DNA of 64,000 nucleotides from Flavobacterium channae (lineage in GTDB: Bacteria; Bacteroidota; Bacteroidia; Flavobacteriales; Flavobacteriaceae), in assembly GCF_021172165.1 (NCBI RefSeq), contig NZ_CP089096.1, positions 2,356,001-2,420,000 on the forward strand. Reading direction: 5' to 3'. Positions 1,367 to 19,698 of the stretch are shown here, one piece after another. Made by a program: the position numbers and the translations under genes. Under the pieces are notes generated by a model that was not told the DNA's origin, made no database searches, and saw only the letters and a list, made by a program, of their open reading frames with translations. Numbering within the stretch: the first letter of the stretch is position 1; each line of letters begins with the position of its first letter.

Positions 1367-3520
1367 ATGAAATTTTTAAAATTACTACTTGTTTTAGTTG
1401 TTTTCCAAGTTCAAGCACAACAAGGTGGGATGTGGATTCCATCTTTATTGGAAGGAACTAATGAAAAAGAAATGAAAGCGCTAGGAATGAAAATTAGCGC
1501 AGAAGACATTTATTCGGTAAATCATTCAAGTTTAAAAGATGCAGTTCCACACTTTAATGGTGGTTGTACTGCAGAAATGATTTCTCCAAAAGGACTTTTA
1601 TTAACAAATCACCACTGTGGTTATGACAACATTCAAAACCATTCAACAGTAGAACACGATTATTTAACTGATGGTTTTTGGGCTTATAAATTAGAAGAAG
1701 AATTACCAAACAAAGATTTAACAGTAACTTTTATTGTTAAGATTGAAGATGTAACGAACAAAATCTTTGAAGGTGTTTTAAATCTTCCAACAGAAAGCGA
1801 CAAACAAAAGAAAATCCAACAAAACATTGCAGCAGTTAGCAAAAACTTCCCAAAAGAAGCTTGGCAAGACGCTATGATTAGAACTTTTTATGACGGAAAC
1901 CAATATTTATTATTCGTTACTGAAACATTCAAAGACGTTCGTTTAGTTGGAGCGCCACCAAGTTCCATTGGAAAATTTGGATCAGATACTGATAACTGGG
2001 TTTGGCCTCGTCATACAGGAGATTTTTCATTATTCAGAATTTACGCAGACAAAAACAATCGTCCAGCAGCATATTCAAAAGATAATGTTCCTTATACGCC
2101 AAAACACTTTTTCCCTGTTTCTGCAAAAGGAATTCAAGAAAACGATTTTACAATGGTAATGGGATATCCTGGAAGAACGCAAGAATACTTGCCTTCTTTT
2201 GCCGTAGAACAAATTGTAAATGATTTAAATCCTGCTAAAATTGAAATTCGTGATGCTGCATTAAAAGTACAAGACGGTTTCATGAGAAAAGATAACGCTA
2301 TTAAAATCCAATATGCTTCAAAGTATGCAAGTGTTGCAAATTATTGGAAAAAATGGATTGGCGAAACTAAAGGCTTAAAAAAATCAAATGCAGTTGCTAT
2401 TAAAAAAGCTTTTGAAAAGAAATTCCAAGAAAGAGTAAACAAAGCTGGCAAACAAGCAGAATACGGAACTCTTTTAGCTGATTTTGAAAAAAATTATAAC
2501 GAAATCAGAGAATATGCAATTGCAAGGGATTATTTTACAGAAGTAGTTTTAAGAAACTCAGAGATTTTATCTTTCGGATATCGTTTATACCAATTAGAGC
2601 AAGTTTACAACACAAAAGGTGAACAAGCTTTTAACGACAGAAAAAACAATTTAATTTCAGGATTTGAAGGTTTGTATAATGATTATAATGCACAAGTTGA
2701 CGAAAAAGTATTCGAACAATTAATTGCATTATACGCAACAAAATCACCAAAACAGTTTTTACCTGAAAGTTTAAACAATGCAAACACATCTGCTTTAACA
2801 ACTTCTATTTTTAGTACATCAAAATTAACTAGCTATACTAGTTTAAAAGAATTATTAAGTGGAGATGCTAAATCTGTTTTAGAAAAAATCAACCAAGATG
2901 CAGCATACAAATTGGTAAAATCAATTGCGGATAGTTACCAAAAAAATGTAGCACCTAAGTTTGACGAAATCAATTTAAAAAACGTTGCATTACAAAGAAC
3001 ATATATGAAGGGAATTATGGAATTCTTTCCAAATGATAGAATTTTCCCAGATGCTAACAGTACACTTCGTGTAACTTATGGAAAAGTTAAAGGATACAAA
3101 CCAAGTGATGCTGTTATCTACGAACCTATTAGTTACTTAGACGGTGTTATTGAAAAATATGTTCCAGGCGATTACGAATTTGATGTTCCAAAAAAATTAA
3201 TTGATCTATACAATGCTAAAGATTATGGTAGATATGCAGACAAGAATGGTAAAATGCCATTAGCTTTCATTGCTACTAATCATACTACAGGAGGAAACTC
3301 TGGTAGTCCTGCTTTAGATTCGAAAGGAAACCTTATCGGATTAAACTTTGATAGAGTTTGGGAAGGCACAATGAGCGACATTTATTATAGTCCAGAAATC
3401 TGTAGAAATATCATGGTAGATGCACGATATATTTTGTTTATTATTGACAAGTTTGCCGGTGCTAAAAACCTTATTGAAGAGATGACGATTCAATACCCTA
3501 AGTCTCAAAAAGCCAAATAA
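1367..3520 (+). CDS. S46 family dipeptidyl-peptidase, DPP11 type (Asp/Glu-specific)
   Basis: Secreted or periplasmic serine exopeptidase that releases N-terminal dipeptides. A signal peptide ends near residue 18 (VFQVQAQ). The mature start GGMWIP is typical of S46. The chymotrypsin-like triad is visible: His near 83 in TNHHCGY, Asp219 in HTGDFSLFR, and Ser645 in GGNSGSP. Exactly 18 residues after the serine comes Arg663 (GLNFDRVWEG). In the P. gingivalis enzymes this position is Arg in DPP11 and Gly in DPP7 and sets the acidic P1 preference, so DPP11 specificity is inferred. The 717-residue length is normal for S46. It probably supports peptide catabolism and appears monocistronic. Confidence 0.92.
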   Translation: MKFLKLLLVLVVFQVQAQQGGMWIPSLLEGTNEKEMKALGMKISAEDIYSVNHSSLKDAVPHFNGGCTAEMISPKGLLLTNHHCGYDNIQNHSTVEHDYLTDGFWAYKLEEELPNKDLTVTFIVKIEDVTNKIFEGVLNLPTESDKQKKIQQNIAAVSKNFPKEAWQDAMIRTFYDGNQYLLFVTETFKDVRLVGAPPSSIGKFGSDTDNWVWPRHTGDFSLFRIYADKNNRPAAYSKDNVPYTPKHFFPVSAKGIQENDFTMVMGYPGRTQEYLPSFAVEQIVNDLNPAKIEIRDAALKVQDGFMRKDNAIKIQYASKYASVANYWKKWIGETKGLKKSNAVAIKKAFEKKFQERVNKAGKQAEYGTLLADFEKNYNEIREYAIARDYFTEVVLRNSEILSFGYRLYQLEQVYNTKGEQAFNDRKNNLISGFEGLYNDYNAQVDEKVFEQLIALYATKSPKQFLPESLNNANTSALTTSIFSTSKLTSYTSLKELLSGDAKSVLEKINQDAAYKLVKSIADSYQKNVAPKFDEINLKNVALQRTYMKGIMEFFPNDRIFPDANSTLRVTYGKVKGYKPSDAVIYEPISYLDGVIEKYVPGDYEFDVPKKLIDLYNAKDYGRYADKNGKMPLAFIATNHTTGGNSGSPALDSKGNLIGLNFDRVWEGTMSDIYYSPEICRNIMVDARYILFIIDKFAGAKNLIEEMTIQYPKSQKAK

Positions 3521-3620
3521 TTAGAAAATATTTTTCAAATTAAAAGTTTGGCACGGCATTTGAAATAAAGCATTTCGGAATCCAGAGAAAAAAAATTTAA
3601 AAAAAAAGTCTAAAAATATT

Positions 3621-3648
3621 TTGACATGTTAAAAAATTTATATCTTTG
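3621..3648 (+). promoter_or_regulatory. Bacteroidota-type promoter for the small lipoprotein genes
   Basis: TTG at 3621-3623, a 17-base spacer, then TATCTTTG at 3641-3648. This matches the Flavobacterium consensus TTG-N17-23-TAnnTTTG and gives a leader of about 30 bases before the ATG at 3685. It is the cleanest promoter in the window. Confidence 0.75.
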
Positions 3649-3684
3649 CTCCGAATTAATAATTAACCTTTATAATTTAGTAAG

Positions 3685-3894
3685 ATGAAAAAAGTTGTTT
3701 TAAGTTTAGCAATCGTTGCTGCTATGTTCGTTTCTTGTAAAGAAAATGCTGCTGAGGCAGAAGCTACTGTAGATTCAACTGTAGTTGAAGCTCCAGCTGT
3801 TGAAGAGGCTCCTGTAGCTGATTCTACTGCTGTAGTTGCTGATTCTACTGCTGCTACTGAAGCTCCAGCTGCTGAAGCTGCTCCAGCTAAGTAA
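3685..3894 (+). CDS. small Ala/Glu/Pro-rich lipoprotein (69 aa)
   Basis: Function unknown. A lipoprotein signal peptide (MKKVVLSLAIVAAMFVSC) ends in a clear lipobox with the lipidated Cys at residue 18. The mature part (about 51 residues) is low-complexity and acidic, made of repeated short blocks such as VADSTA, EAPA and VEEAPV. It has no hydrophobic core and is probably disordered and surface- or periplasm-facing. The next gene is a paralogue with the same architecture and an almost identical start. The strong promoter just upstream and the hairpin terminator just downstream suggest an abundant single-gene transcript. Confidence 0.85.
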   Translation: MKKVVLSLAIVAAMFVSCKENAAEAEATVDSTVVEAPAVEEAPVADSTAVVADSTAATEAPAAEAAPAK

Positions 3895-3917
3895 TTTATT
3901 GCTGACAGTAAAAAATC

Positions 3918-3944
3918 AAGCTCCACAATGTGGGGCTTTTTTTT
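3918..3944 (+). terminator. intrinsic terminator after the first small lipoprotein
   Basis: The hairpin AGCTCCAC / GTGGGGCT (one G-T pair, three-base loop) is followed by a run of eight T. It separates the two tandem lipoprotein genes. Confidence 0.85.
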
Positions 3945-3987
3945 GACCAATAATTAAAAACGTTTAATCAATATAAAAAAATAAAAA

Positions 3988-4215
3988 ATGAAAAAAGTTA
4001 TTTTAAGCTTAGTATTTGCTACTACTATGTTTGTTTCTTGCAAAGAAAACACACCTGAGACTACTGAAACTACAGATTCAACTGCTGTTGAAACTCCTGT
4101 TGTTGAAGAAGCTCCTGTTGCAGACTCTACTGCAGTTGCTGTTGATTCTGCAGTTGCAAAATCACAAGAAACTGCTAAAGTAAAACTTCAAAGAATTGAC
4201 GAAGTAGTAAAATAA
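3988..4215 (+). CDS. small Thr/Glu/Val-rich lipoprotein (75 aa), paralogue of the preceding gene
   Basis: A tandem duplicate of the gene before it. It shares the signal peptide pattern MKK-V-LSL...MFVSCKEN with Cys18 as lipidation site, and the segment VEEAPVADSTAV in the mature part. It differs in a Thr/Glu-rich start (TPETTETTDSTAVE) and a basic tail (KVKLQRIDEVVK). No enzymatic motif is present. It is followed directly by a strong terminator. Role unknown; a small envelope or stress lipoprotein is a guess. Confidence 0.82.
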   Translation: MKKVILSLVFATTMFVSCKENTPETTETTDSTAVETPVVEEAPVADSTAVAVDSAVAKSQETAKVKLQRIDEVVK

Positions 4216-4233
4216 TCATTTACTCAAACAACA

Positions 4234-4260
4234 AAAAGCCCTGTTATGCAGGGCTTTTTT
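4234..4260. terminator. bidirectional terminator between lipoprotein and DUF1508 genes
   Basis: AAAAGCCCTG / CAGGGCTTTT with a five-base loop, A-rich on the left and T-rich on the right. It can stop the plus-strand lipoprotein transcript and the converging minus-strand DUF1508 transcript, whose stop codon overlaps it at 4259. Confidence 0.85.
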
Positions 4261-4612
4261 ATTCTATCGGACCAAATATGTCTTCTGCAGAAGAAAAGTC
4301 TAAGAATTCCGCCTTATCGGCATATTTTACAATTTCATCAATTCCTTTTTGCAAAAGCAATTGTGTTGTATATCGTCTACTTACAGCAATTTCATGCTCA
4401 TCTAATATCAATCGAAAGAAAAACTTTCCTCCAGAAGATCTAAAGCGCATAAAAACACATCGCTCTAAAGAAACTTTCAGTTTTTCAATTTCTTCCTCGC
4501 ACTCAAAACGCAATTCAAAATCATTACTTGTAAATATTGTTTTACCTCTTCTAGAGACGAACTCATATTTATAATTCCCATTAAGGCGTTTACTGATTAC
4601 AAATGTCCCCAT
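4259..4612 (-). CDS. DUF1508 (YegP-like) family protein
   Basis: A small cytoplasmic protein with the start MGTFVISKRLNGNYKYEF, typical of the YegP/DUF1508 family (FVISK..NG.Y.F, then a beta-rich 'G..I..S..F' unit). The 117 residues look like two tandem DUF1508-like units: one around residues 1-50 and a more divergent one around 50-105. There is no catalytic motif. The molecular function of the family is not established. The gene is convergent with the small lipoproteins and is probably transcribed on its own. Confidence 0.7.
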   Translation of the reverse strand: MGTFVISKRLNGNYKYEFVSRRGKTIFTSNDFELRFECEEEIEKLKVSLERCVFMRFRSSGGKFFFRLILDEHEIAVSRRYTTQLLLQKGIDEIVKYADKAEFLDFSSAEDIFGPIE

Positions 4613-5152: not shown

Positions 5153-7774
5153 TTATTTTTTTACCAACATTCGTTTTATTTCGTTCAACTTCATTAAAGC
5201 TTCAACTGGCGTTAATGTATTGATGTCGATATTTACAATTTCTTCTTTAATTTCTTCTAAAAGCGGATCATCTAAATTGAAGAAACTCAATTGCAATTCA
5301 TCACTAGCCGATTTTATTCCAGCCAATTCTTCACTTGAATGTCTTTTCTCTAGTTGTTTCAATAGTTTTTGTGCTTTTTGAATTACAATTTGAGGCATTC
5401 CAGCCATTTTTGCTACGTGAATACCAAAACTATGCGCACTTCCTCCTTTAACCAATTTACGAATGAATAAAACCGTATCTTTTAATTCCTTTACCGAGAC
5501 ATTAAAGTTTTGAATTCTATCAAACGTAACTTCCATTTCGTTTAACTCGTGATAATGCGTAGCAAACAACGTTTTTGGCTTATTTGGATGTTCATGCAAG
5601 TATTCTGAAATTGCCCAAGCAATCGAAATTCCATCGTAAGTTGAAGTTCCTCTTCCAATTTCATCTAGCAAAACCAAACTTCTTTCTGAAATATTGTTCA
5701 AAATAGAAGCTGTTTCATTCATTTCTACCATAAAAGTAGATTCTCCCATCGAAATATTATCACTTGCTCCTACTCTAGTAAAGATTTTATCCACAACACC
5801 CATTCTAACGCTTTCTGCAGGAACAAAACTTCCCATTTGCGCCATTAATACAATTAAAGCCGTTTGACGCAAAATAGCCGATTTACCCGACATATTCGGA
5901 CCCGTAATCATAATGATTTGTTGGGTTTCTCTATCTAAATATACATCATTCGTAATATAAGGTACTCCAACAGGTAATTGCTTTTCAATTACTGGATGAC
6001 GACCATCTTTAATTTCTAAATCGAAACTATCATCCAATTCTGGACAAACATATTTGTTATCAATCGCTAATTGCGTAAAAGAAGTTAAACAATCCAATTG
6101 CGCTATCAAATTGGCATTCAATTGTACGTGCTTAATATAAGTTGCTATCCAATTAATTAATTGTTCAAACAATTGGGTTTCTAATTGATGGATTTTTTCT
6201 TCAGCACCTAAGATTTTCGATTCGTATTCTTTTAGTTCTTCTGTAATATATCGTTCAGCATTAACTAAAGTTTGTTTACGAATCCATTCAGCCGGAACTT
6301 TATCTTTATGTGTATTTCTAACTTCTATATAATACCCAAAAACATTATTGAAAGACACTTTTAAGGAAGGAATTCCTGTTGCAGCACTTTCTCTTTGTTC
6401 CAATGCTTCCAAATACCCTTTTCCTGTAGATGAAATATTTCGCAATTCATCTAATTCCGGATGAACACCAACAGCTATTGCATTTCCTTTATTCACACTT
6501 ACTGGAGCATCTTCTTGAATAGTTGCTTTAATCTTTTCGCGTAACAATTCGCAAGCATGCAAACTATCACCAATTACTCGTAAAGCTTCATTATTACTTT
6601 CTAATGCCAAAGTTTTAATTGGAATTATAGCATCTAATGAATCTTTCAAGAAATTTACTTCTCTTGGCGAAATTTTACCTGTCGCAACTTTTGAAATCAA
6701 ACGTTCCAAATCTGAAATTTGTTTGATTTGATATTGAATTTGATTTAATATTTCAGGATTCGATTTCAAATACGAAATTACTTCATGGCGACTTCTAATT
6801 TTTGAAATATCTTTCAACGGAAGCGCCAACCATCTTTTTAACAATCTCGCTCCCATTGGTGAAAGTGTTTTATCAATTACATCTAAAAGCGTAACCGCAT
6901 TAGGGTTATAACTGTGATATAACTCTAAATTCCTGATGGTAAACTTATCCATCCACACATAAGCATCTTCAGCTATACGTTGGATATTGGTGATATGTTG
7001 AATTTTATTATGCTGCGTTTCGGATAAATAATATAAAACAGCACCTGAAGCGATTAATCCATCTGTTAATTCCTCCACTCCAAAACCTTTGAGCGAATTG
7101 GTTTGAAAATGCTTGGTTAAACTCTCCAAAGCATAATCTTCTTTATACACCCAATCTTCTAAAAAGAAAGTATGAAAATCCTCTCCGAAAATAGAATTGA
7201 ATTGGTTTTTAAATTGTTTTGGTATTAAAATCTCACTTGGGCGGAAATTTTGCAATAATTTATCAATATACTCTTCGTTTCCTTGCGATACCAAAAACTC
7301 TCCGGTGGAAACATCTAAAAACGAAACCCCTACTATTTTCTTCCCAAAATGAACAGAAGCCAAAAAGTTATTCGATTTCGACTGCAACACCTCATCATTC
7401 ATCGAAACACCAGGAGTTACTAATTCTGTAACACCACGTTTTACAATCGTTTTTGTCATTTTTGGATCTTCTAATTGATCGCAAATTGCAACACGAAGTC
7501 CTGCTTTAACTAATTTAGGCAAATAGGTATTTAATGAATGGTGTGGAAAACCCGCTAACGCAGTTTCGCTATCACTTCCTGCTCCACGCTTGGTTAAAGT
7601 AATTCCTAAAATTCCTGCAGCACGAACTGCATCTTCTCCAAAAGTCTCATAAAAATCCCCTACGCGAAACAGCAAACAAGCATCTGGATACTTATTTTTA
7701 ATTTCGTTATATTGTTTCATCAAAGGGGTTTCCTTTGGAGCTTTATCAGAAGTTGTTGCAGATTTTTTAGCCAC
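5153..7774 (-). CDS. mutS: DNA mismatch repair protein MutS
   Basis: Recognises mismatches and starts repair through ATP-dependent sliding-clamp formation. At 873 residues it is a full-length MutS1. The mismatch-binding Phe-X-Glu is FYE at 41-43 in [12 protein letters not shown]. The core and clamp domains follow. The ABC ATPase has Walker A GPNMSGKS (about 625-632), then STFMVEMNE and Walker [14 protein letters not shown], and the helix-turn-helix/dimer region is present. The start codon is GTG (7774-7772), as in [10 protein letters not shown]. The gene is divergent from the SpoU methyltransferase gene across about 110 bases. No MutL is nearby. Confidence 0.98.
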
Positions 7775-8950: not shown

Positions 8951-10081
8951 TTAGCAAATTTTCTTTTTGATCTCACTCAAAATCTTCACATAATCTTCTT
9001 GTTTTTTCACGAAATCTAAATCAGAAACATCAATAATCAACACATTTAAATCGGTTTGGGTTTTGATGTAATCCAAATAACCTTGATTAATTTTTTCTAG
9101 GTAATCGGCCGGAATTTCTTGCTCGTAACTTCTGCCACGCTTTTTGATGTTTACCAGTAATCTTTCAGTATTTTGGTACAAATACACGTACAAATCAGGT
9201 TTTGGCATTTCTTTATGAATGATGTCAAACATGGTTTTGTACAAACGAAATTCATCTTCTTGAAGCGTGACTTTTGCAAAAATCAACGATTTAAAAATAT
9301 GATAATCGGCTACCACAAAATCTTTGAACAAGTCAAATTGCGCCAAATCATCTGATAATTGTTGGTATCTATCCGCTAAAAAAGACATTTCTAAAGGAAA
9401 CGCATAACGGCTTTGATCTTTGTAAAACTTAGGTAAAAACGGATTATCGGCAAAACGCTCTAAAACCAATTTTGCATTACAATCTTGTGCAATTTTTGAA
9501 GACAAAGTTGTTTTTCCAGCGCCAATATTTCCTTCAATAGCAATATAATTGAATTGTTGTAATTCTAATTTTTCAATTGGCGAAACTAACGATGCTACAA
9601 CTTTTATTTCGCTGTTATCCTCAGTTTGAGATAACAATTGCAGAATTGTTTTCTTTAAAATTGGATGTTCCCAATTCAATCCTAAATCCATCATGGGTTG
9701 CAACACAAACTTGCGATTTTGCATTAATGGATGCGGAACTTGCAAGTTTTCAGTAGAAATAATTTCCTCGTCAAAAGCAATGATATCAACATCAATAATT
9801 CGCGCTTGATATCCTGAATCTTTGGTACGAATTCTACCTAACTTCTTTTCTACTCTCAAAACCTGATTCAAAATTTTTTGAGCCGATTTTGTAGTGTGAA
9901 TTAAAATTGCAGCATTATAAAAAGGCTCACTTTCAAAACCCCAAGCTGGCGTTTCGTAAATTTTGGAAACCTTTACAACCGTTGCTACTTCACTATGAAT
10001 CAAATCAATACAAGCCTGAATCGTTTCAAAACGATTTCCTTGATTACTTCCTAACGATACTATAACTTGGTGTTGACTCAT
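8951..10081 (-). CDS. folK: bifunctional HPPK (FolK) / deoxynucleoside kinase fusion
   Basis: Two enzymes in one 376-residue chain. Residues 1-160 are 6-hydroxymethyl-7,8-dihydropterin pyrophosphokinase of folate synthesis: VSLGSNQGNR, AAILIHT, then RIIDVDI with metal-binding D97 and D99 and VPHPLMQNRKFVL. Residues about 176-376 are a deoxyribonucleoside kinase of the dGK/dAK type: P-loop IEGNIGAGKTT (182-192), LERFADNPFLPKFY and a C-terminal KRGRSYEQEI lid. This fusion is known from flavobacteria, where the kinase half was reported as a deoxyadenosine kinase. A shortened -7-like box (10093-10087) lies right before the ATG. Confidence 0.93.
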   Translation of the reverse strand: MSQHQVIVSLGSNQGNRFETIQACIDLIHSEVATVVKVSKIYETPAWGFESEPFYNAAILIHTTKSAQKILNQVLRVEKKLGRIRTKDSGYQARIIDVDIIAFDEEIISTENLQVPHPLMQNRKFVLQPMMDLGLNWEHPILKKTILQLLSQTEDNSEIKVVASLVSPIEKLELQQFNYIAIEGNIGAGKTTLSSKIAQDCNAKLVLERFADNPFLPKFYKDQSRYAFPLEMSFLADRYQQLSDDLAQFDLFKDFVVADYHIFKSLIFAKVTLQEDEFRLYKTMFDIIHKEMPKPDLYVYLYQNTERLLVNIKKRGRSYEQEIPADYLEKINQGYLDYIKTQTDLNVLIIDVSDLDFVKKQEDYVKILSEIKKKIC

Positions 10082-10196
10082 ATTGGCAAAATAACAAACA
10101 TTTTTAGACTTCTAATTTACCTTTTCCATTTTTTTATGAACATGTAACAATTTTTGAGTTTTTTCTACTAATGCTATGAATTAAAATGAAAATGAA

Positions 10197-11963
10197 ATGA
10201 AATTTTTAGGAAATGTATTAGCTACAATTGTTGGGTTATTTGTTTTTTGCATAATGTCCTTTTTTGGTATTATCATAATTGGTGCCATTGCAGGAGGCGG
10301 AGACGAAACCGTTACTGTAAAAAATAATTCCGTTATTGAATTAGATTTATCAAAAGTAAGTTTGGATTATGCTGGAAAAACCAACTACAAAGACTTTAAT
10401 TATTTTGAAGCGCATCATGATGGTGTTACCGATATTTTAAATGCCATTGAAGCTGCAAAAAAAGATAAAAAAATTAAAGGAATTTCGATTCTTAACAACC
10501 AATCACAACTAGGTTTAGCCCAAAGCAAAGCAGTACGAGATAAATTAGAAGATTTCAAAAAATCTGGAAAATTTGTTTATGCTTACGCTAATTTTTACAC
10601 ACAAGGCGAATATTATTTAAATTCGGTTGCAGACCAAGTATATTTAAACCCAATGGGGGAAGTTGATTTCAAAGGATTATCTTCTGAAATTATCTACATG
10701 AAAGAGTTACAAGAAAAATCAGGTATTAAGTTTGAAGTAATTCGTCATGGAAAATACAAAAGCGCTGTTGAACCTTACTTATCACAAGAAATGAGTCCAG
10801 AAAACCGCGAACAAATGACTGTTTTGTTAAACTCGGTTTGGACTACTATTGTAGAAGATATTGCTAAAAGCAGAAAACTATCAGTAGCGCAATTAAATGC
10901 TATCGCCAATTCATTAGGAGCAAGAACACCAGAATTAGCTTTAGCAAATAAATTAGTGGATAAAATAGCTTATGAAGACGAATATCACGATATGATTAGA
11001 GCGAAATTAAAGCTTGACAAAAAAGAAAAATATGATATCGTAAGTATCACAGATTATGCAAAAACTGCCGCTTCAACTGTTGAAGATTATACAAAGAAAG
11101 ATATCATTGCTGTAATTTATGCACAAGGAGAAATTGCAGGAGGTGAAGGTGATGTAAATATAATAGGAGAAGGTTCAATTAAGCGATCTTTACAAGAAGC
11201 AAGAGAGAATGAAGATGTAAAAGCAATTGTTTTACGTGTAAATAGCCCTGGAGGAAGTGCTTTGACTTCAGAGTTGATTTGGAGAGAAATTGAAATCACT
11301 AAAAAAACAAAGCCTGTTGTAGTTTCTATGGGGAATTATGCCGCTTCTGGAGGATATTACATTGCAGCTAATGCGGATCGAATTTTCGCAGAACCAAACA
11401 CGATTACAGGTTCTATCGGAGTTTTTGGAATGCTACCTAATATGAACCAATTAGGTAAAAATATCGGAATTAATGCCGAACAAGTTAAAACTCACGAAAA
11501 CGCAAGTGGTTATAGCATTTTTGAACCAATTGACGAGAACTTTAAAGGATTTGTTTTAGAAAGCATCGAAAAAACCTATGCTACTTTTCTTAAAAGAGTA
11601 GCTGATGGAAGAAAAATGACCACTGAACAAGTTGATGCTATTGCACAAGGACGAGTTTGGACAGGAATTGACGCTCAAAAACTAGGCTTAGTAGACGAAA
11701 TTGGTGGTTTAGATGCTGCCATTAAATATGCAGCAAAACTTGGAAAAACAAATTCGTACAGAACTGAAAACTTCCCAGAATACGAAAAAAGCTTTGAAGA
11801 TTTATTAGCTAATTTCACAGGAATGGCCATGTTTAAAACTAAAGAGCAATTATTAAAAGAACAACTTGGTGAAGAAGGCTATCAAATGCTAGAACAAATA
11901 AAACGAGTTAAAAGCAGAAAAGGTATCCAGGCCATGATGCCATACGAAATTGAGATTCATTAA
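10197..11963 (+). CDS. sppA: signal peptide peptidase SppA, 67-kDa type
   Basis: Inner-membrane protease that clears cleaved signal peptides in the periplasm. An N-terminal membrane anchor spans residues 8-32. The two tandem S49 domains are complete. The catalytic lysine of the first domain is K188 in GKYKSAVEPYLSQEMSP, and the nucleophile of the second is S384 in GNYAASGGYYIA. VLRVNSPGGSALTSE forms the substrate groove. The 588-residue length matches the E. coli type rather than the short Bacillus form. The gene is divergent from folK-dNK and ends at its own terminator. Confidence 0.96.
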   Translation: MKFLGNVLATIVGLFVFCIMSFFGIIIIGAIAGGGDETVTVKNNSVIELDLSKVSLDYAGKTNYKDFNYFEAHHDGVTDILNAIEAAKKDKKIKGISILNNQSQLGLAQSKAVRDKLEDFKKSGKFVYAYANFYTQGEYYLNSVADQVYLNPMGEVDFKGLSSEIIYMKELQEKSGIKFEVIRHGKYKSAVEPYLSQEMSPENREQMTVLLNSVWTTIVEDIAKSRKLSVAQLNAIANSLGARTPELALANKLVDKIAYEDEYHDMIRAKLKLDKKEKYDIVSITDYAKTAASTVEDYTKKDIIAVIYAQGEIAGGEGDVNIIGEGSIKRSLQEARENEDVKAIVLRVNSPGGSALTSELIWREIEITKKTKPVVVSMGNYAASGGYYIAANADRIFAEPNTITGSIGVFGMLPNMNQLGKNIGINAEQVKTHENASGYSIFEPIDENFKGFVLESIEKTYATFLKRVADGRKMTTEQVDAIAQGRVWTGIDAQKLGLVDEIGGLDAAIKYAAKLGKTNSYRTENFPEYEKSFEDLLANFTGMAMFKTKEQLLKEQLGEEGYQMLEQIKRVKSRKGIQAMMPYEIEIH

Positions 11964-12102: not shown

Positions 12103-14718
12103 ATGTTAAAGAAAGTTTTAAAAGGACTTGGGATATTTCTTTTGGTAACCATCATCGTATTAGCAGCCGCACCTTATTTGTTTAAAGACAAAATCAAGGA
12201 AATGATTGCTAAAACATTAAACGAAAATGTTAATGCTAACATTGCATTCGAAGATGTGGATTTGAGTTTGTTTAAAAGTTTTCCACAAGCTCATGTAACA
12301 ATTGATAAGCTGAGCATCATAAACAAAGCTCCTTTTGCTGGCGATACGCTTTTATATGCTGGAGAAACCAATGTAACTATGAGTGTAAAAGAACTTTTTA
12401 AAGGCGATGGTGAAACCATGAGTTTAGAAAGTTTTAGCGCTGTTAACGGAATTGTAAATATCATTTTCAATAAAGAGGGTGTAGGTAATTTTGACATCGC
12501 TATAAAAGAAGCAGAAGAAAAAAAACCTTCTGATAGTAAGCCATTTTCTTTAGACATACAAAAGTATGGAGTTGAGAATCTAAAATTCAGTTATATTGAT
12601 GAAGGTTCGAACATGAAAATGGTTTTAGACAGCATTTATCATGAAGGAAAAGGAAATTTTGCTGCTCAAAAATTAGATTTAGAAACCAAAACTTCGGCAA
12701 AATTATCTTTTGAAATGGAGAAAATGAGCTACATGAACAATGTAGGAATCACTTTAGATGCTATTTTAGGAATTGATTTAGAGAAAAGCAAATACGAATT
12801 CAAAGACAATAAAGCCTTAATCAATCAATTACCATTAGAATTTAATGGATTTATTCAAATGGTGGAAGCGGGTCAAACCTATGACTTAACATTCAAAACA
12901 CCAACCTCTGATTTCAAAAACTTCTTAGGATTAGTTCCTGCTGCTTATTCTGGCGATATTAATAAAGTAAAAACATCAGGACAATTCTCGGTAGATGGAA
13001 AAGTAAAAGGAAATTTAACCGAAACTTCGATTCCAACATTTGATGTGAAAATTGCTTCGAATAATGCCTCTTTCCAATATCCTGATTTACCAAAATCAGT
13101 AAAAAATATTGTAATTAACACCCATATTGTTAATGAAACTGGTGCAATGAATGACACTTATGTAAATTTACATCAACTCTCATTTGCTATTGACCAAGAC
13201 GTTTTTAATGCGAAGGCAATTGTGAAAAATATTGCTACAAACGCATTAGTAGATGCCGAATTAAAAGGAACTATCAATTTAGCAAACGTTACAAAAGCCT
13301 ATCCGGTAAAATTAGACAAACCCTTAACTGGAATTCTAAAAGCCGATGTAAAAACGAAGTTCGATATGCAATCGGTTGAGAAAAGTCAGTATCAAAACAT
13401 ACAAAACTCGGGAACCGTTAGTTTAACTGGATTTAATTATGAAGGTCCAGAAATGGCAAAACCATTTAAGATTAATCAAGCTGCAGTTGCTTTTAATCCA
13501 AATCACATCAACTTGAGTCAATTTGATGCTAAAACTGGAACATCTGACATTCAGATTAATGGAACTCTAGATAATTTTTATGGCTTTTTATTTAGAAACC
13601 AAATTTTGAAAGGAAACTTTTATATGAACTCGACCAAATTAGTAGTTTCTGATTTCATGACACCTACTACCACAACTAGTGATGATGGCAAAAAAACTAC
13701 CGAAGCTGTTAAAATTCCTTCATTCTTAGATTGCAGCATTACAGCTAAAGCGGGAACAGTTATTTATGACAATTTAAACTTAAAAGATGTTTCAGGTAAC
13801 CTAACTATTCGTGACGAAGCTGTTATGTTAAACAACTTAAAAATGGGAGTTTTTGGAGGAAATATTGGTTTAACCGGAACCGTTTCAACAAAAGGAAAAA
13901 CTCCAAAATTTGATATGAATTTAGGATTAAATTCGGTTAACATTGCAGAATCTTTTACACAATTAGACATGCTAAAATCGATTGCTCCAATTGCAGGAGT
14001 TGTCAATGGAAAACTGAATTCGACCATTAAATTATCTGGTGATTTACAAAATGATATGACCCCAAATTTAAAAACGATTTCTGGTGATTTATTTGGACAA
14101 TTATTATCAACTACTATTAATGAAAAGAATTCAGCTATGTTAACTGCATTGAGTTCCAACATGAAATTCATCGATATGAGTAAAGTAAATCTTAATGATG
14201 TTAAAGCGGCTCTTTCTTTTAAAGATGGAAAAGTAAATGTAAAACCTTTCGATATCAAATATCAAGATATTACTGTTAATGTTGGCGGAAGTCATGGTTT
14301 TGATCAAACGATGAATTATAATTTAAAATTTGATGTTCCTGTTAAATACTTAGGAAAAGAAGTGACAAATTTAGTGGCAAAATTAACCCCTGCCGACCAA
14401 AAACAGATTACAAGTATTCCGGTTACAGGATTGATGACTGGTAACTTCACGCAACCTAAATTTAATTCCGATTTAAAACAATCTACTACTAATTTAACCA
14501 CACAGTTGGTTAAAATGCAGAAAGACAAATTGGTTAATCAAGGAACTTCTGCCTTGAGCAATTTAATTAACGGAACAAAAGGAAATAACTCTGGAACTAC
14601 AACAGCTACAGACACTACTAAAACTAAATCTACTCCTAAAGAAGAAATTAAAAACACCATTAAAGACAAAGCTGGTGCAATAAAAAATTTATTTGGCGGC
14701 AAGAAAAAAGAAGAATAA
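12103..14718 (+). CDS. AsmA-like envelope protein (871 aa)
   Basis: A large membrane-anchored periplasmic protein of the AsmA/DUF748 group, related to bridge-like proteins proposed to move lipids to or help assemble the outer membrane. One membrane segment is at residues 5-27, followed directly by the AsmA signature (LNENVNANIAFEDVDLSLFKSFPQAHVTIDKLSI). A long beta-rich region repeats 'L.G..N......G' units, with a second AsmA-C-like part around 560-760 (MLNNLKMGVFGGNIGLTGTV). The tail from about 800 is Lys/Thr-rich and low-complexity. The gene is monocistronic. The exact cargo is unknown. Confidence 0.85.
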   Translation: MLKKVLKGLGIFLLVTIIVLAAAPYLFKDKIKEMIAKTLNENVNANIAFEDVDLSLFKSFPQAHVTIDKLSIINKAPFAGDTLLYAGETNVTMSVKELFKGDGETMSLESFSAVNGIVNIIFNKEGVGNFDIAIKEAEEKKPSDSKPFSLDIQKYGVENLKFSYIDEGSNMKMVLDSIYHEGKGNFAAQKLDLETKTSAKLSFEMEKMSYMNNVGITLDAILGIDLEKSKYEFKDNKALINQLPLEFNGFIQMVEAGQTYDLTFKTPTSDFKNFLGLVPAAYSGDINKVKTSGQFSVDGKVKGNLTETSIPTFDVKIASNNASFQYPDLPKSVKNIVINTHIVNETGAMNDTYVNLHQLSFAIDQDVFNAKAIVKNIATNALVDAELKGTINLANVTKAYPVKLDKPLTGILKADVKTKFDMQSVEKSQYQNIQNSGTVSLTGFNYEGPEMAKPFKINQAAVAFNPNHINLSQFDAKTGTSDIQINGTLDNFYGFLFRNQILKGNFYMNSTKLVVSDFMTPTTTTSDDGKKTTEAVKIPSFLDCSITAKAGTVIYDNLNLKDVSGNLTIRDEAVMLNNLKMGVFGGNIGLTGTVSTKGKTPKFDMNLGLNSVNIAESFTQLDMLKSIAPIAGVVNGKLNSTIKLSGDLQNDMTPNLKTISGDLFGQLLSTTINEKNSAMLTALSSNMKFIDMSKVNLNDVKAALSFKDGKVNVKPFDIKYQDITVNVGGSHGFDQTMNYNLKFDVPVKYLGKEVTNLVAKLTPADQKQITSIPVTGLMTGNFTQPKFNSDLKQSTTNLTTQLVKMQKDKLVNQGTSALSNLINGTKGNNSGTTTATDTTKTKSTPKEEIKNTIKDKAGAIKNLFGGKKKEE

Positions 14719-14735
14719 ACAACAAATAACAACAT

Positions 14736-14763
14736 AAACCCTTTCAATTGAAAGGGTTTTCTG
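14736..14763. terminator. palindromic terminator after the AsmA-like gene
   Basis: A perfect 24-base palindrome, AAACCCTTTCAA / TTGAAAGGGTTT, followed by TTTTCTG. Its right edge lies next to the orphan copy of the DUF2797 3' end, so it probably once served that convergent gene as well. Confidence 0.85.
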
Positions 14764-14829
14764 TTATAAGCTCATCTTCACCACATAACCTTCATAAGTT
14801 CTAACATTAAAAACGGTTCCATCTTCAAA
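14764..14829 (-). pseudogene. orphan 3' end of a DUF2797 gene (left copy of the 62-bp repeat)
   Basis: On the minus strand these bases encode the last residues of the DUF2797 protein (...FEDGTVFNVRTYEGYVVKMSL) and then a TAA stop at 14766-14764. Positions 14768-14829 are identical, base for base, to 17299-17360 inside the intact gene, which ends with TAG. There is no upstream part of the gene here. It is a severed or duplicated tail that marks the left border of a cassette. Confidence 0.88.
14768..14829. repeat. 62-bp direct repeat, left copy
   Basis: Perfectly identical to 17299-17360 in the same orientation. It begins AAGCTCATCTTCACC and ends CCATCTTCAAA. Identity stops sharply on both sides (T versus C on the left, A versus T on the right). 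The spacing between copies is 2,531 bases. Confidence 0.97.
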
Positions 14830-15013
14830 AAAAGTAAAAACCGTAACATTTTTACGGTAAAACCGTAAAATCAGATTATTTTTAATACCGATTTTTGTGT
14901 AAATTTTTTAATTATACAAAAATGAAACAAAAAATAACTAAATTTTCGCAAGGGAACAGCCCTCCAAAAAGAAAAATTAACTTTACATTTTTAATATTTA
15001 ACACATTACAAAC

Positions 15014-15571
15014 ATGAAGACAATTCAATTATTTATCACTATTGCATTATTATCATTTTTAACAACTAACGCTCAAATTACAAAAGGGAATTGGATGGTT
15101 GGAGGCACTGGAAGCTTCACAAATTATAAAAGTACTTTTCAAAGCGGTAATACCGAAATTAGTCAAACAGGGAGTGCATTAAATATTTCTCCAAATTTAG
15201 GCTACTTTATTGTAGATAATGTTGTTCTTGGTTCTATTGTAAGTTTTAGCTTTTCAAATCCATCTGGTGACAACAATAATAGTCAAGGTTATGGTTTATC
15301 ACCCTTTATTAGATATTACTTTAGAAAATCTGATAAAATGATTAACCCTTTTTTACAAACGGGTTATAGTTTAAGTAAAGGTAAAAGTGATTCAGGGGGA
15401 TCAAATAAAAGCACTGGATATACAATTAAAGGAGGTTCAGCTATTTTTTTAAACAGTAGTGTTGCTCTTGAACTCTCGCTTAATTATGATTCATCAAAGT
15501 TTAATTCAGATGTAAAATCTAATAATTTTACAGTTGGAATTGGTTTTCAAATACATTTAGAGAAAAAATAA
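15014..15571 (+). CDS. outer-membrane beta-barrel protein (185 aa)
   Basis: A signal peptide ends near residue 20 (LTTNAQ). The mature chain has alternating beta strands (NWMVGGTGSFTNYKSTF, LGYFIVDNVVLGSIVSFSF, LSPFIRYYFR) and ends in an amphipathic strand (FTVGIGFQIHLEKK). This resembles the small OmpX/OprF-type eight-strand barrels common in Bacteroidota. The specific function is unknown. It lies inside the repeat-flanked cassette, 22 bases ahead of the Ig-like protein gene, and the two are probably one transcript. Confidence 0.75.
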   Translation: MKTIQLFITIALLSFLTTNAQITKGNWMVGGTGSFTNYKSTFQSGNTEISQTGSALNISPNLGYFIVDNVVLGSIVSFSFSNPSGDNNNSQGYGLSPFIRYYFRKSDKMINPFLQTGYSLSKGKSDSGGSNKSTGYTIKGGSAIFLNSSVALELSLNYDSSKFNSDVKSNNFTVGIGFQIHLEKK

Positions 15572-15593
15572 AAATCTTTTAAAAAACAATAAA

Positions 15594-17198
15594 ATGAAAA
15601 ACAAAATAAAGTTTTTAAAATTAGTTGTAATACTATTTTTTAGTTTTAATACTCATTCTCAAGTAACAGTAAGTGTACAAAATTTACAATATACAAATAA
15701 TGGTCAACCTACTGTGTATCCATCAAATTGTGGGAATATAGATTTAGCATCAAGTATTAGCACATCATTATATTTAAGTATAAATTTAAGTAAACCTAAT
15801 GGTCAAGTTGTTGGTTTAAGTGATTTGCGTGTTTATACTCAGAAATCCTCCTCAGACTCGAGAATTGAAAGAAGTTGGATACAAATTCAAGAATCATTTT
15901 GGAGTACATCAGAACCAAGTACCTATCTTACAACTGCTAATTTCTCAATAAATTCTTCCGATTTTAATACTTCTGGTGGTACTTTATTTGTAGTTTTTAA
16001 GTCAAGTGGAAATGTTGAATATCAAACTGCTTGTAGCTTTACAATTACCAAAACCCCTCCTCCGTCATTTTCATTATCACCTTCAACAGTAAGTTTAGGT
16101 TGTGGTGATACAAGCCTAAGAACATTTACTATTACTCCAGCAAATATTCCAAGTGGGGCAAATGTAACTTATAGTTGGAATCATCCAGGTTGGACATTAG
16201 TTAGTTCAACAGCTACTTCTAGAACTTTACAACCAAATTCTACTAATAATTTACCTTCAAATGTAACCGTAACCCCAAGTATTAATAGTGTTACTCAAGC
16301 TACTAAAACTTGCGTTGTCAGCCGTGCTCCTTTTAATACAAACACACTTTCAATTTCGGGTAATAATTATGTTTGTGATACTGGTATTTATTCCATAAAC
16401 AATCTACCAAGTAGTGTAGTTATTCAATCTGTTACATCATCAAATAATAATATTGCAACAGTTAGTTTAACTGGTACTAATGAAATTTTAGTTACAAAAG
16501 TTTCAGATGGTATTGTTTCTATTTCTGCTACTGTTCAAAATACTTGTAATCAAATAGCAACGATTTCTAAAGAAAATATACAAATTGGAATTCCTAGTAA
16601 TGTAAACGATGCCGTTATTTCAGGTTCTAGTTCTGTTTGTTCAAATCAGTATTATACTTACACAATCACAGAAGCAAGTCATCCTTGTATAACCACTTTT
16701 AATTGGGATGTTTCTCCAAACTTGCAAATAATTTCTCAAAATTCAAATAGTGTAACTGTAATTAAAAATCCATCTGACAATCAAAATTCGGGTTACATTT
16801 CATATACTATTCCAAATACAAATGTTGAAATTAGAAAAGGAGTTTGGGTTGGTTTACCTGAAAATTCAGGATTAAACATACTTAAAATTGGTTCTTATGA
16901 TTTTTATGCTGGTAGTTGGACAACTCTAAAGGCAACTTATAGCGCACTTATTTACCCTGAAAGTGGAAATTATAATTTAACTTACGAATGGATAATCCCT
17001 AATAGCTATGTGAGAAATTATACCGACACTGCTTACAAAGATGTAAATCCAAGGAGTAGTGATCAATTAAATATTGGCATAAGAGCATGGAATGAATGCG
17101 GTTGCACAGATTGGTTTTATAAATTATTTGACGTAATTAGTGCAGGTACAGGTGGAGGAGGCACAGGTGGAGGAAATGTATTAACACCTGCCAATTAA
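15594..17198 (+). CDS. secreted protein with Ig/PKD-like domains (534 aa)
   Basis: The signal peptide (residues 1-23, ending NTHSQ) is followed by an N-terminal beta domain (about 25-150) and then several PKD- or Ig-like units of about 90 residues rich in Ser, Thr and Asn, many with paired cysteines (for example SLGCGDTSLRTFTITP, GNNYVCDTGIYSI, GSSSVCSNQYYTYTI, WNECGCTDWFYKLFDV). Such proteins are typical type IX secretion cargo or adhesins. It stops after a Gly/Thr linker (TGGGGTGGGNVLTPAN) with no C-terminal sorting domain. No such domain is found in another frame before the terminator, so the end may be lost. Function unknown. Confidence 0.7.
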   Translation: MKNKIKFLKLVVILFFSFNTHSQVTVSVQNLQYTNNGQPTVYPSNCGNIDLASSISTSLYLSINLSKPNGQVVGLSDLRVYTQKSSSDSRIERSWIQIQESFWSTSEPSTYLTTANFSINSSDFNTSGGTLFVVFKSSGNVEYQTACSFTITKTPPPSFSLSPSTVSLGCGDTSLRTFTITPANIPSGANVTYSWNHPGWTLVSSTATSRTLQPNSTNNLPSNVTVTPSINSVTQATKTCVVSRAPFNTNTLSISGNNYVCDTGIYSINNLPSSVVIQSVTSSNNNIATVSLTGTNEILVTKVSDGIVSISATVQNTCNQIATISKENIQIGIPSNVNDAVISGSSSVCSNQYYTYTITEASHPCITTFNWDVSPNLQIISQNSNSVTVIKNPSDNQNSGYISYTIPNTNVEIRKGVWVGLPENSGLNILKIGSYDFYAGSWTTLKATYSALIYPESGNYNLTYEWIIPNSYVRNYTDTAYKDVNPRSSDQLNIGIRAWNECGCTDWFYKLFDVISAGTGGGGTGGGNVLTPAN

Positions 17199-17227
17199 CT
17201 CATACTTATATTTAATCTTAATTTTCT

Positions 17228-17262
17228 ATAGCGACTTTCGTTTAATTGAAAGTCGCTATTAT
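17228..17262 (+). terminator. terminator at the right end of the cassette operon
   Basis: Perfect 11-bp arms ATAGCGACTTT / AAAGTCGCTAT with a ten-base loop, followed by TATCATTTTTG. Confidence 0.8.
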
Positions 17263-17294
17263 CATTTTTGTTTTTTATTAAAGAAATTAATATT

Positions 17295-18086
17295 CTACAA
17301 GCTCATCTTCACCACATAACCTTCATAAGTTCTAACATTAAAAACGGTTCCATCTTCAAATAGCAGATATTGACCTTTAATGCCGGTTAGCGTTCCAGAG
17401 AAGTTTGGTGTTTTATCTAAATTCAAACTCGTAATTTTTTTAGGATATTGCAATACTGGAAAATCTAGTTGGATAATTTTTTCTTCTTTTGGAAAATAGT
17501 CTTTTACTTCAGTTGGCAACCAATCGAAAACTTTATTTCGTTTAGCAATTAAATCCATCTCTAGATATTCATTTTTTAACATTTTTTGCCAATTGGTTTT
17601 ATCTGCAAAATGATTTTTCAAGGCAACTTCTGTAATTCCTGCTAAATACCTATTTGGAACTTCAACTATTGGAATAGCTTGCACAGCGCCTTGGTCTATC
17701 CATCTAGTAGGAACTTGTGTTTTTCTTGTTACCCCTACTTTTACTTCACTTGATAAGGCTAAATACACTACATGAGGTTGTAATTGTATGCGTTTTTCAT
17801 ATTCCAAGTCTCTATCTTCAATATCTAAATGCGCGGTACTTAATTCGGGCTTCATAATCCAATCGCCAACTGCTGGGCTGCTCATAAAACAATCGTAACA
17901 AAATCCTTGACGAAAAATTTTCTTGGCTTTTCCGCAATTCAAACATTGGTAGCCTTGAAATTCAATTTCCATTGGTTTTCCTAATAATTGATTCAGATTT
18001 AAAAAACTGTTTTCAAAAACCAGATAGTATTGAATTGGATTCCCAAATTCGGTTTGCATTTTACTTAGCGTGCCTTGATAATTCAT
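17295..18086 (-). CDS. DUF2797 domain-containing protein
   Basis: A 263-residue cytoplasmic protein. A zinc-ribbon-like pair CLNCGKAKKIF...GFCYDC lies around residues 48-68. The core VVYLALSSEVKVGVTRKTQVPTRWIDQGA (about 107-135) resembles a GIY-YIG-like nuclease fold, but nuclease activity is not established for this family. Function unknown. The last 62 bases before the stop region are duplicated 2.5 kb away, so the gene end appears to have served as an insertion target. The start ATG at 18086 gives the expected family N-terminus. Confidence 0.8.
   Translation of the reverse strand: MNYQGTLSKMQTEFGNPIQYYLVFENSFLNLNQLLGKPMEIEFQGYQCLNCGKAKKIFRQGFCYDCFMSSPAVGDWIMKPELSTAHLDIEDRDLEYEKRIQLQPHVVYLALSSEVKVGVTRKTQVPTRWIDQGAVQAIPIVEVPNRYLAGITEVALKNHFADKTNWQKMLKNEYLEMDLIAKRNKVFDWLPTEVKDYFPKEEKIIQLDFPVLQYPKKITSLNLDKTPNFSGTLTGIKGQYLLFEDGTVFNVRTYEGYVVKMSL
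17299..17360. repeat. 62-bp direct repeat, right copy (within the DUF2797 gene)
   Basis: Identical to 14768-14829. This copy is part of the intact DUF2797 coding region and encodes its last 20 or so residues. Confidence 0.97.
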
Positions 18087-18186: not shown

Positions 18187-19698
18187 ATGCCACTGCAAAT
18201 TATAAATTCTGTTGCCACTTGGATATTGAAGAAGCGAATTCATCAAATGGAATTGTTTTTAAAATATCCTCAAGAAGTTCAAGAAGAATTACTTTTTAGC
18301 TTAATTAAATCGGCAGAAAATACACTAATTGGAAAAAAATACGAATTTTCATCCATAAAAAATTATGCTACATTTAATGAACGCATACCTATTTCAACTT
18401 ATGAAGATTTAGAACCTTTAATTGAACGAACAAGACAAGGAGAACAAAATGTTTTTTGGAATACGAATATTAAATGGTTTGCAAAATCAAGCGGAACTAC
18501 TAATGCTAAGAGCAAATTCATTCCTGTAAGTTCAGAAGCATTAGAAAATTGTCATTACAAAGCAAGTAAGGATTTATTGTGTTTGTATTTAAATAATAAT
18601 GAAGATTCACAACTGTTTGTAGGAAAAAGTCTTCGTCTTGGCGGTAGCAAGCAATTGTATGAAGATAATAATACGTTCTTTGGTGATTTATCTGCCATTT
18701 TAATTGACAATATGCCAATATGGGCCGAGTTTAGCTCTACTCCTAGTAGTAAAATTTCCTTAATGGGAGATTGGGAAACCAAACTTCCAGCAATTATAAA
18801 TGAGACTATCAATGAAAATGTAACTAGTTTAGCTGGAGTTCCTAGTTGGATGATGGTTTTGTTACAAAAATCATTGGAAACCACTGGAAAATCAAATATG
18901 TTGGAACTTTGGCCAAATGCTGAAGTGTACTTTCATGGTGGAGTAAATTTTGACCCTTATAGAGAACAATACAAAAAATTGTTCCCAAAAAGTGATTTCA
19001 AATATTACGAAATATACAATGCTTCGGAAGGATTTTTTGCAATCCAAGACCAAAATGATTCCAACGAATTGTTATTAATGTTGGATTATGGAATTTTCTA
19101 CGAATTCATTCCAATGGAAACTTTCGGCACTTTAAACCAACGAGTAATCCGACTTAATGAAGTAGAATTAAACAAAAACTACGCATTGGTAATTACAACT
19201 AATTCAGGTTTGTGGCGTTATTTAATTGGCGACACCATTCGTTTTACATCGTTAAACCCATACAGAATTAAAGTTACAGGAAGAACCAAACATCATATCA
19301 ACGTTTTTGGTGAAGAATTGATGGTTGAAAATACCGATACAGCTCTAACCAAAACTTGCAAAGAATTCAATTGTGAAATTATGGATTATACGGTGGCTCC
19401 CATTTTTATGAACGATAAACAAAAAGGCGCTCACGAATGGATAATAGAATTTAAAACCAAACCAAATAATATTGAGAATTTCCAAAAGGCTTTAGACGAA
19501 AATCTTCAAAGTGTCAATTCTGATTATGAAGCCAAACGTTACAACAACATGACCTTAAATCCGTTAGTATTAAATGTGGCTCGTGAAAATCTTTTTTATG
19601 ATTGGTTAAAACAACAAGATAAACTAGGTGGTCAACACAAAGTACCACGACTTTCTAATGAACGAAATTATCTAGAAAGCCTATTAACACTACAATAA
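18187..19698 (+). CDS. GH3 family acyl-adenylate-forming enzyme
   Basis: A 503-residue protein of the GH3 (auxin-responsive) branch of the ANL superfamily, in which plant members conjugate amino acids to acyl substrates via acyl-AMP. The phosphate-binding loop is FAKSSGTTNAKSKFIPVS (about 97-114). YEIYNASEGFFAIQD carries the acyl-adenylate motif, and LWRYLIGDTIRFTS the adenine/hinge region. The length is typical of bacterial GH3 proteins in Bacteroidota, whose substrate is unknown. It is followed after six bases by a micro-lipoprotein gene, so the two may be co-transcribed. Confidence 0.88.
   Translation: MPLQIINSVATWILKKRIHQMELFLKYPQEVQEELLFSLIKSAENTLIGKKYEFSSIKNYATFNERIPISTYEDLEPLIERTRQGEQNVFWNTNIKWFAKSSGTTNAKSKFIPVSSEALENCHYKASKDLLCLYLNNNEDSQLFVGKSLRLGGSKQLYEDNNTFFGDLSAILIDNMPIWAEFSSTPSSKISLMGDWETKLPAIINETINENVTSLAGVPSWMMVLLQKSLETTGKSNMLELWPNAEVYFHGGVNFDPYREQYKKLFPKSDFKYYEIYNASEGFFAIQDQNDSNELLLMLDYGIFYEFIPMETFGTLNQRVIRLNEVELNKNYALVITTNSGLWRYLIGDTIRFTSLNPYRIKVTGRTKHHINVFGEELMVENTDTALTKTCKEFNCEIMDYTVAPIFMNDKQKGAHEWIIEFKTKPNNIENFQKALDENLQSVNSDYEAKRYNNMTLNPLVLNVARENLFYDWLKQQDKLGGQHKVPRLSNERNYLESLLTLQ

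Follow-up and report, generated by a model that had tools for sequence, protein, structure and literature searches.

Orphan DUF2797 gene tails at an insertion hotspot of Flavobacterium and their possible origin by one-sided recombination

Described routes of insertion at gene ends

In the present study, we analysed 64,000 nucleotides of Flavobacterium channae DNA (contig NZ_CP089096.1, positions 2,356,001 to 2,420,000 of the forward strand; the whole stretch is called the window), in which the genes of a small beta-barrel and of an Ig-like protein stand between two copies of the 3' end of a DUF2797 gene, at its junction with a convergent AsmA-like gene. Genomic islands that enter at the 3' ends of tRNA or other genes rebuild the gene end, and direct repeats bracket the insert. 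The present locus shares the rebuilt gene end and the bracketing repeats with them, but its insert holds no integrase, the repeat length is not constant and several unrelated genes are affected. As regards integron gene cassettes, with their attC-like sites and integron integrase, the repeats here are host gene ends. Homology-facilitated illegitimate recombination is a further route and has been described mainly from laboratory crosses. Published cases come from conjugation in E. coli and from three species that are naturally competent (PMC3240628). The locus L072 of F. rhamnosiphilum has in common with it a non-homologous join and, on the other side, what is probably a homologous one. The cases studied here differ in being natural scars at gene ends, among which the window would belong. 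In the type VI secretion system arrays of Vibrio cholerae, an akin mechanism was proposed for displaced effector genes, with mention of orphaned Rhs 3' regions (PMC5361080). The likeness lies in these displaced 3' regions, whereas the present cargo is free to vary and is anchored at a housekeeping gene unrelated to it. The same mechanism was proposed for small variable segments (PMC2884548). Hotspots without mobile elements, with recombination at the flanking core genes, have also been described (PMC5635113); they resemble the present junction in fixed core neighbours, varied cargo and lack of an integrase, but the model given for them has two homologous crossovers, which would leave no orphan tail. 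Since there are published cases both of the mechanism and of element-free hotspots, the mechanism and the hotspot type are already known. In the open-access literature searched, we found neither genus-wide orphan-tail scars nor a barrel-Ig module (no search was made by the names of the barrel-Ig proteins), and nothing on one-sided insertion with partial duplication or on the mechanism's name together with an orphan and a direct repeat.

On balance we lean, by a little, towards a one-sided, integrase-free insertion at the DUF2797/AsmA-like junction by homology-facilitated illegitimate recombination, and the junction as an integrase-free insertion hotspot in Flavobacterium is part of this reading. 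Incoming DNA with cargo next to a DUF2797 gene would pair with the recipient DUF2797 region and recombine homologously there, and its opposite end, without matching sequence, would be joined illegitimately inside the recipient DUF2797 3' end. The DUF2797 gene would then be completed with the incoming 3' end, and the recipient's own tail would stay behind beside the AsmA-like terminator. Uptake would probably be by transformation, and joins at gene ends may persist since both neighbours stay intact.

The DUF2797/AsmA-like junction in the window and its relatives

The perfect 62-bp repeat on which the original prediction was built was confirmed by direct comparison within the window. Positions 14768-14829 are identical to 17299-17360 in the same orientation, and with one mismatch the repeat reaches 14765 and 17296 (64 of 65 bases over 14765-14829). 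The expected chance of an exact 62-mer pair in the window is about 4e-25, and in the genome-wide search that had been proposed, the sequence was found at these two places only, with no third copy in the 2.81-Mb genome G000 (single contig, 2,808,467 bases). The right copy lies within the intact DUF2797 gene (17295-18086, minus strand; PF10977, E 5.5e-96), which on the minus strand ends in MSL and TAG (17295-17297). The left copy (14764-14829, minus strand) has only the final ~22 codons and ends in MSL and TAA (14764-14766 in plus-strand numbering), and it is, as had been described, an orphan tail beside the terminator of the AsmA-like gene. The two genes predicted between the copies are the barrel gene (15014-15571, plus strand; PF13505, E 2e-9) and the gene for a 534-residue Ig-like mosaic protein (15594-17198, plus strand; matches across the genus). 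No Pfam match to an integrase was found among their two proteins, in agreement with the earlier claim, and the 534-residue protein matched no Pfam or NCBIfam family.

The flanks of the two copies were compared with the DUF2797 3' flank of 11 empty relatives. In eight of these (L003, L005, L007, L008 and L010-L013), a AAACCCTTTC...GAAAGGGTTT type of hairpin stands within a few bases after the DUF2797 stop codon TAA, and the AsmA-like gene comes next; in L016 the same hairpin type follows a TGA stop, and L014 and L029 have no such hairpin after the DUF2797 stop. The left copy in the window carries this flank, with the hairpin AAACCCTTTCAATTGAAAGGGTTT at 14736-14759, which appears to be the ancestral shared terminator. 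The right copy runs into new DNA with another hairpin (17228-17259), which is part of the insert, and a hairpin like it was absent after the DUF2797 stop in the 11 empty sites. Thus the ancestral outer flank is retained on the left copy, and the insert lies against the right one. Foreign DNA at the DUF2797 3' end, with the gene end present twice, had been predicted in this form. The gene beyond the left copy (12103-14718, plus strand, convergent with DUF2797) is called only AsmA-like because its NCBIfam AsmA match is below threshold (28.5 bits, cut-off 412) and Pfam gave no match even at E 1. That the left copy is an assembly artefact is unlikely, the genome being one contig and N-free relatives having the same architecture.

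For comparison across the genus, 181 DUF2797 loci were gathered, of which 45 were dropped for an identical DUF2797 gene, leaving 136 distinct loci (the window included, a few labelled as other taxa). An AsmA-like gene in reach, downstream of DUF2797 and convergent with it, was found in 113 of the 136 and not in the other 23. Among these 113 junctions, 78 were empty (gap of at most 350 bases, median 48.5; L163 was counted as empty) and 35 were occupied by differing cargo, and the same core neighbours, different cargo and empty sites that mark a hotspot were found together. The empty sites and the other cargo at the same gene end, for which the original prediction had proposed to look, are both present, and the relatives do not all carry the same two genes. 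The cargo set comprised 63 of 86 predicted insert open reading frames (ORFs) of at least 70 residues; the other 23, from L047, L075, L078, L241, L244, L246 and L292, repeat cargo already included. The cargo of the occupied junctions includes a LacI, TonB-receptor, MFS and trehalase set and SprB-repeat and Porph_ging proteins. The family listing of the cargo set, which gave 25 of the 63 Pfam and 25 of the 42 PHROGs families, adds ParD antitoxin, ferritin-like, glyoxalase and DUF6705 proteins, the last in 4 of the 63 insert proteins. Because the family listing covered part of the families, the absence of an integrase is stated for five inserts only, namely those of the window, L058, L164, L286 and L072 (in the four relatives, ORFs of at least 70 residues, protein by protein). 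At the same junction, the inserts of L006, L017 and L142 hold small secreted proteins of a common look (a YYxKD stretch), some with repeated terminators, and these might form an immunity-type gene array.

Of the 113 junctions, the 61 whose gap of at least 60 leaves room for a tail copy were searched for one. Beside the AsmA-like gene, a copy of the DUF2797 tail was found in the window (65 nt), L058 (130 nt, 96%), L164 (187 nt, 92.5%), L286 (at least 33 nt, 86%) and L072 (52-71 nt by method, 79-85%). In L163, a 90-nt copy extends across a short run of N, and this case was rejected as a plain tandem tail as N lies between the copies. L004 has a 644-nt partial second DUF2797 copy, which does not adjoin the AsmA-like gene, and a run of N is nearby. 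The fragment between the two DUF2797 copies of L004 (8790-9840 of that locus) contains repeated GGAAAACATTTCCGCGCTATCGGG stretches and reads like the C-terminus of what we take to be a REP-associated transposase. In total, DUF2797 tail copies were found seven times and AsmA-like tail copies not once in the 61 junctions tested (sign test 0.016); when the two cases with N (L004 and L163) are omitted, the counts are 5 vs 0 (0.06 by the same arithmetic). The copies range from about 33 to 187 nt with varying inner ends, and no constant attachment core was seen; a site-specific core was rejected because tail lengths and inner ends differ among the cases. It is true that L163, with its N between gene and tail copy, and L004, with its N run nearby, leave some cases uncertain, but an assembly artefact or chance as the source of the pattern is barely conceivable, given the chance expectation cited above, the single-contig genome and the N-free relatives with the same pattern.

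Evidence for and against a one-sided insertion

The best-resolved case is L072, which was compared in 200-base tiles with L080 and L078. Where both were comparable, its GH3 and AsmA-like sides matched L080 at 89-97% and L078 at 76-83%, and its 7-kb insert aligned to L078 only (86-98%). The DNA just upstream of DUF2797 was of L078 type by length and sequence (24 L078-type and 6 L080-type sites from 225 to 150 bases upstream), and the final 66 nt of the gene had 11 L078-type and 3 L080-type sites. L080 is also the type of the orphan tail and of its adjoining terminator; over the tail alone, the closest sequence is L073 (85%). At the inner edge, the donor trehalase gene has no stop of its own and is fused into the recipient DUF2797 tail, and only ~6 bases (ATATTT) are common to both sides, so the inner join is non-homologous. 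One join without extended homology belongs to homology-facilitated illegitimate recombination, and it was found here. Because the insert and the DUF2797 end are donor-like and the GH3 gene is recipient-like, a homologous switch would lie somewhere between the insert and the GH3 gene. Overall, the alignments of L072 appear to match homology-facilitated illegitimate recombination. In L286, the orphan and its flank are closest to L063 and L049, like much of the L286 backbone, and the final 100 nt of DUF2797 are closest to other loci; this case would give one-sided recombination weaker support than L072.

These two loci also bear on another explanation, in which the second copy of the gene end was made by the insertion event. 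After a staggered break or a replication restart, a foreign fragment would be captured and the gene end copied, much as in a target-site duplication, but a long one whose length varies. Such an event would account for the perfect identity of the copies in the window and for the varying tail lengths. We consider it a clearly less probable origin, as the orphan and the intact end of L072 resemble different lineages, those of L286 lean likewise, and a tract which the window shares with L004 suggests that the gene end moved with the cargo. Among the loci compared with the window, L004 is the only other one with a relative of the barrel. In the final 109 bases of DUF2797 (17295-17403, minus strand), the window and L004 have 10 shared-derived vs 5 unshared sites, and in the rest of the gene 7 vs 47 (15 relatives, Fisher p 9.5e-5). 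The neighbouring GH3 DNA (GH3-family gene at 18187-19698, plus strand; PF03321) and AsmA-like DNA show no such closeness (12 vs 195 and 10 vs 78 sites). These counts suggest that the DUF2797 end travelled together with the barrel. By analogy, the insert of the window would have arisen as in L072, and the DUF2797 end of its donor would have been the same as that of the recipient or nearly so.

Identical direct repeats would also be yielded by a Campbell insertion, that is, a single RecA crossover of a circle carrying the cargo and one copy of the gene end, and the 62 bp exceed the 30-bp RecA threshold cited in PMC2884548. We regard this as improbable, since no circular source is known, the inner join of L072 is non-homologous and the first arrival at a new gene would be left unexplained.

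Several observations weigh against one-sided recombination as we propose it. In L072, the body of the DUF2797 gene is mixed (62 L078-type and 57 L080-type sites), and its first 66 nt have 0 L078-type and 8 L080-type sites. A clean transfer of the whole gene was therefore rejected, and the mixture means that L078 and L080 are not the true parents or that there were several crossovers; from these site patterns, neither locus is probably the true parent. In L286, L063 still ranks third over the final 195 nt of DUF2797. The orphans of L058 and L164, compared without near relatives, are closest to their own intact copies (91.6 and 92.5%), which also fits a duplication within the lineage and speaks for duplication at the time of insertion. 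In the window, the derived sites of the intact copy recur in the orphan, and the two are identical over 62 bases; thus one allele was common to donor and recipient, or the copies have since been homogenised. The window gives no sign of a divergent donor, and a donor of the same species or a later homogenising must be assumed. The excess of DUF2797 tails may reflect the better conservation of that gene end, the one explanation we have for it. As for uptake, Riemerella columbina was naturally competent and F. johnsoniae was not under the same conditions in one test (PMC7965970). ComEC and DprA families were found in G000, which is no proof of competence.

Scars at other genes and the barrel-Ig cargo

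When 156 sequences (2.12 Mb, 1450 ORFs) were scanned, partial copies of gene tails numbered 16 and those of gene heads 5, which counts in favour of the one-sided insertion. Some of the tail copies belong to paralogue arrays (L017, L223 twice, L235), one is an inverted hit (L277), those of L073 and L080 may stem from one event, and the five head copies (L058, L223 twice, L235 twice) all have the look of paralogues. Outside DUF2797, tail copies were found for clpX (L073 and L080), a nifJ-type gene (L230), a PhnA-domain gene (L236) and a peptidase-like gene (L231); the names clpX, nifJ, pyrG, uvrA and peptidase are presumptive and were assigned from the sequences. An insertion of L073 and L080 at a clpX/OmpA-like junction was considered and rejected, as the insert follows clpX in another gene order. 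At the nifJ-pyrG site of L223 and L228, the host terminator is repeated after each barrel-Ig pair. In L222, a 198-bp direct repeat of intergenic DNA with 82% identity (6460-6656 and 9543-9739 of that locus) brackets a barrel-Ig pair upstream of a uvrA-like gene; therefore, something other than a gene tail can be duplicated. Such scars are not confined to one gene.

The original prediction had likened the process to that of genomic islands at tRNA ends, and a site-specific process of this kind was not supported. With a tyrosine recombinase acting in trans at the DUF2797 end, the gene end would be rebuilt with sharp edges, as is seen. G000 has 10 Phage_integrase matches elsewhere in the genome, and genes of IS91-type transposase and integrase flank the barrel-Ig pair in L220. 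Yet the cases have no common tail length or inner end, the cargo differs, similar scars stand at unrelated genes, the five inserts named above have no integrase and the inner join of L072 is non-homologous, and we give this explanation little credence.

The cargo of the window recurs in the genus. Among 398 genus genomes, the own genome included, the barrel has matches at E<=1e-10 in 49 and the Ig-like protein at E<=1e-5 in 25. Both genes are present at 14 of 21 sites and one of them at the others, and the pair occurs twice in tandem in L223 and L228, which represent a single site in two genomes. Direct repeats of at least 37 bases bracket 7 of the 21 barrel-Ig sites, and when a 2.2-kb stand-in was placed at random, they bracketed 0 of 140 placements; six of the 21 sites have a short flank (L227, L230, L231, L235, L237 and L198), and one of the seven positives is among them. 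From the mobile surface cassette first suggested, the mobility was upheld, as the pair behaves as a mobile module; one may fairly guess that the 534-residue protein is secreted or sits on the surface and can be swapped. Over residues 1-155 it shares 71-74% identity with P0007, P0042 and P0050, and residues 331-534 are 94-95% identical to P0003 and P0008 and 12-16% to P0042 and P0050. The protein is thus a chimera, with one set of closest relatives for its N-terminal 155 residues and another for its C-terminal 200. Relatives carry PF19408 and PF18962 in precomputed annotations, the latter, a type IX sorting domain, in several of them; the protein of the window ends in a glycine-rich tail, like P0002-P0006 and P0008.

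Upstream in the window, a 31-residue leader ORF (MKQKITKFSQGNSPPKRKINFTFLIFNTLQT; 14922-15017, plus strand) overlaps the start of the barrel gene (ATGA). Related small ORFs of SPP type stand upstream of other barrels, in 10 of the 21 regions checked, the window included and L004 with a close homologue, and the ORF could be a leader peptide or an RNA regulator. In L220 (G281), two sets of IS91-type transposase and tyrosine integrase genes (2585-4431 and 10107-11338 of that locus) enclose the barrel-Ig pair and are a possible vehicle for moving it.

We offer, as a tentative and rather doubtful extension, that the barrel-Ig pair is a dedicated integrase-less mobile module, which would land at gene ends and terminators, often leave a duplicated host gene end or terminator and swap its own protein modules, and that orphan tails across Bacteroidota would record a common, uncounted route of gene gain. 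The entry of genes into hotspots without a mobile element has mostly been inferred from statistics. As a physical scar, an orphan gene tail shows which side paired and where the other end was joined. If the one-sided insertion proposed here is true, such scars could be counted genome by genome, and the share of one-sided recombination in natural gene gain would become directly measurable.

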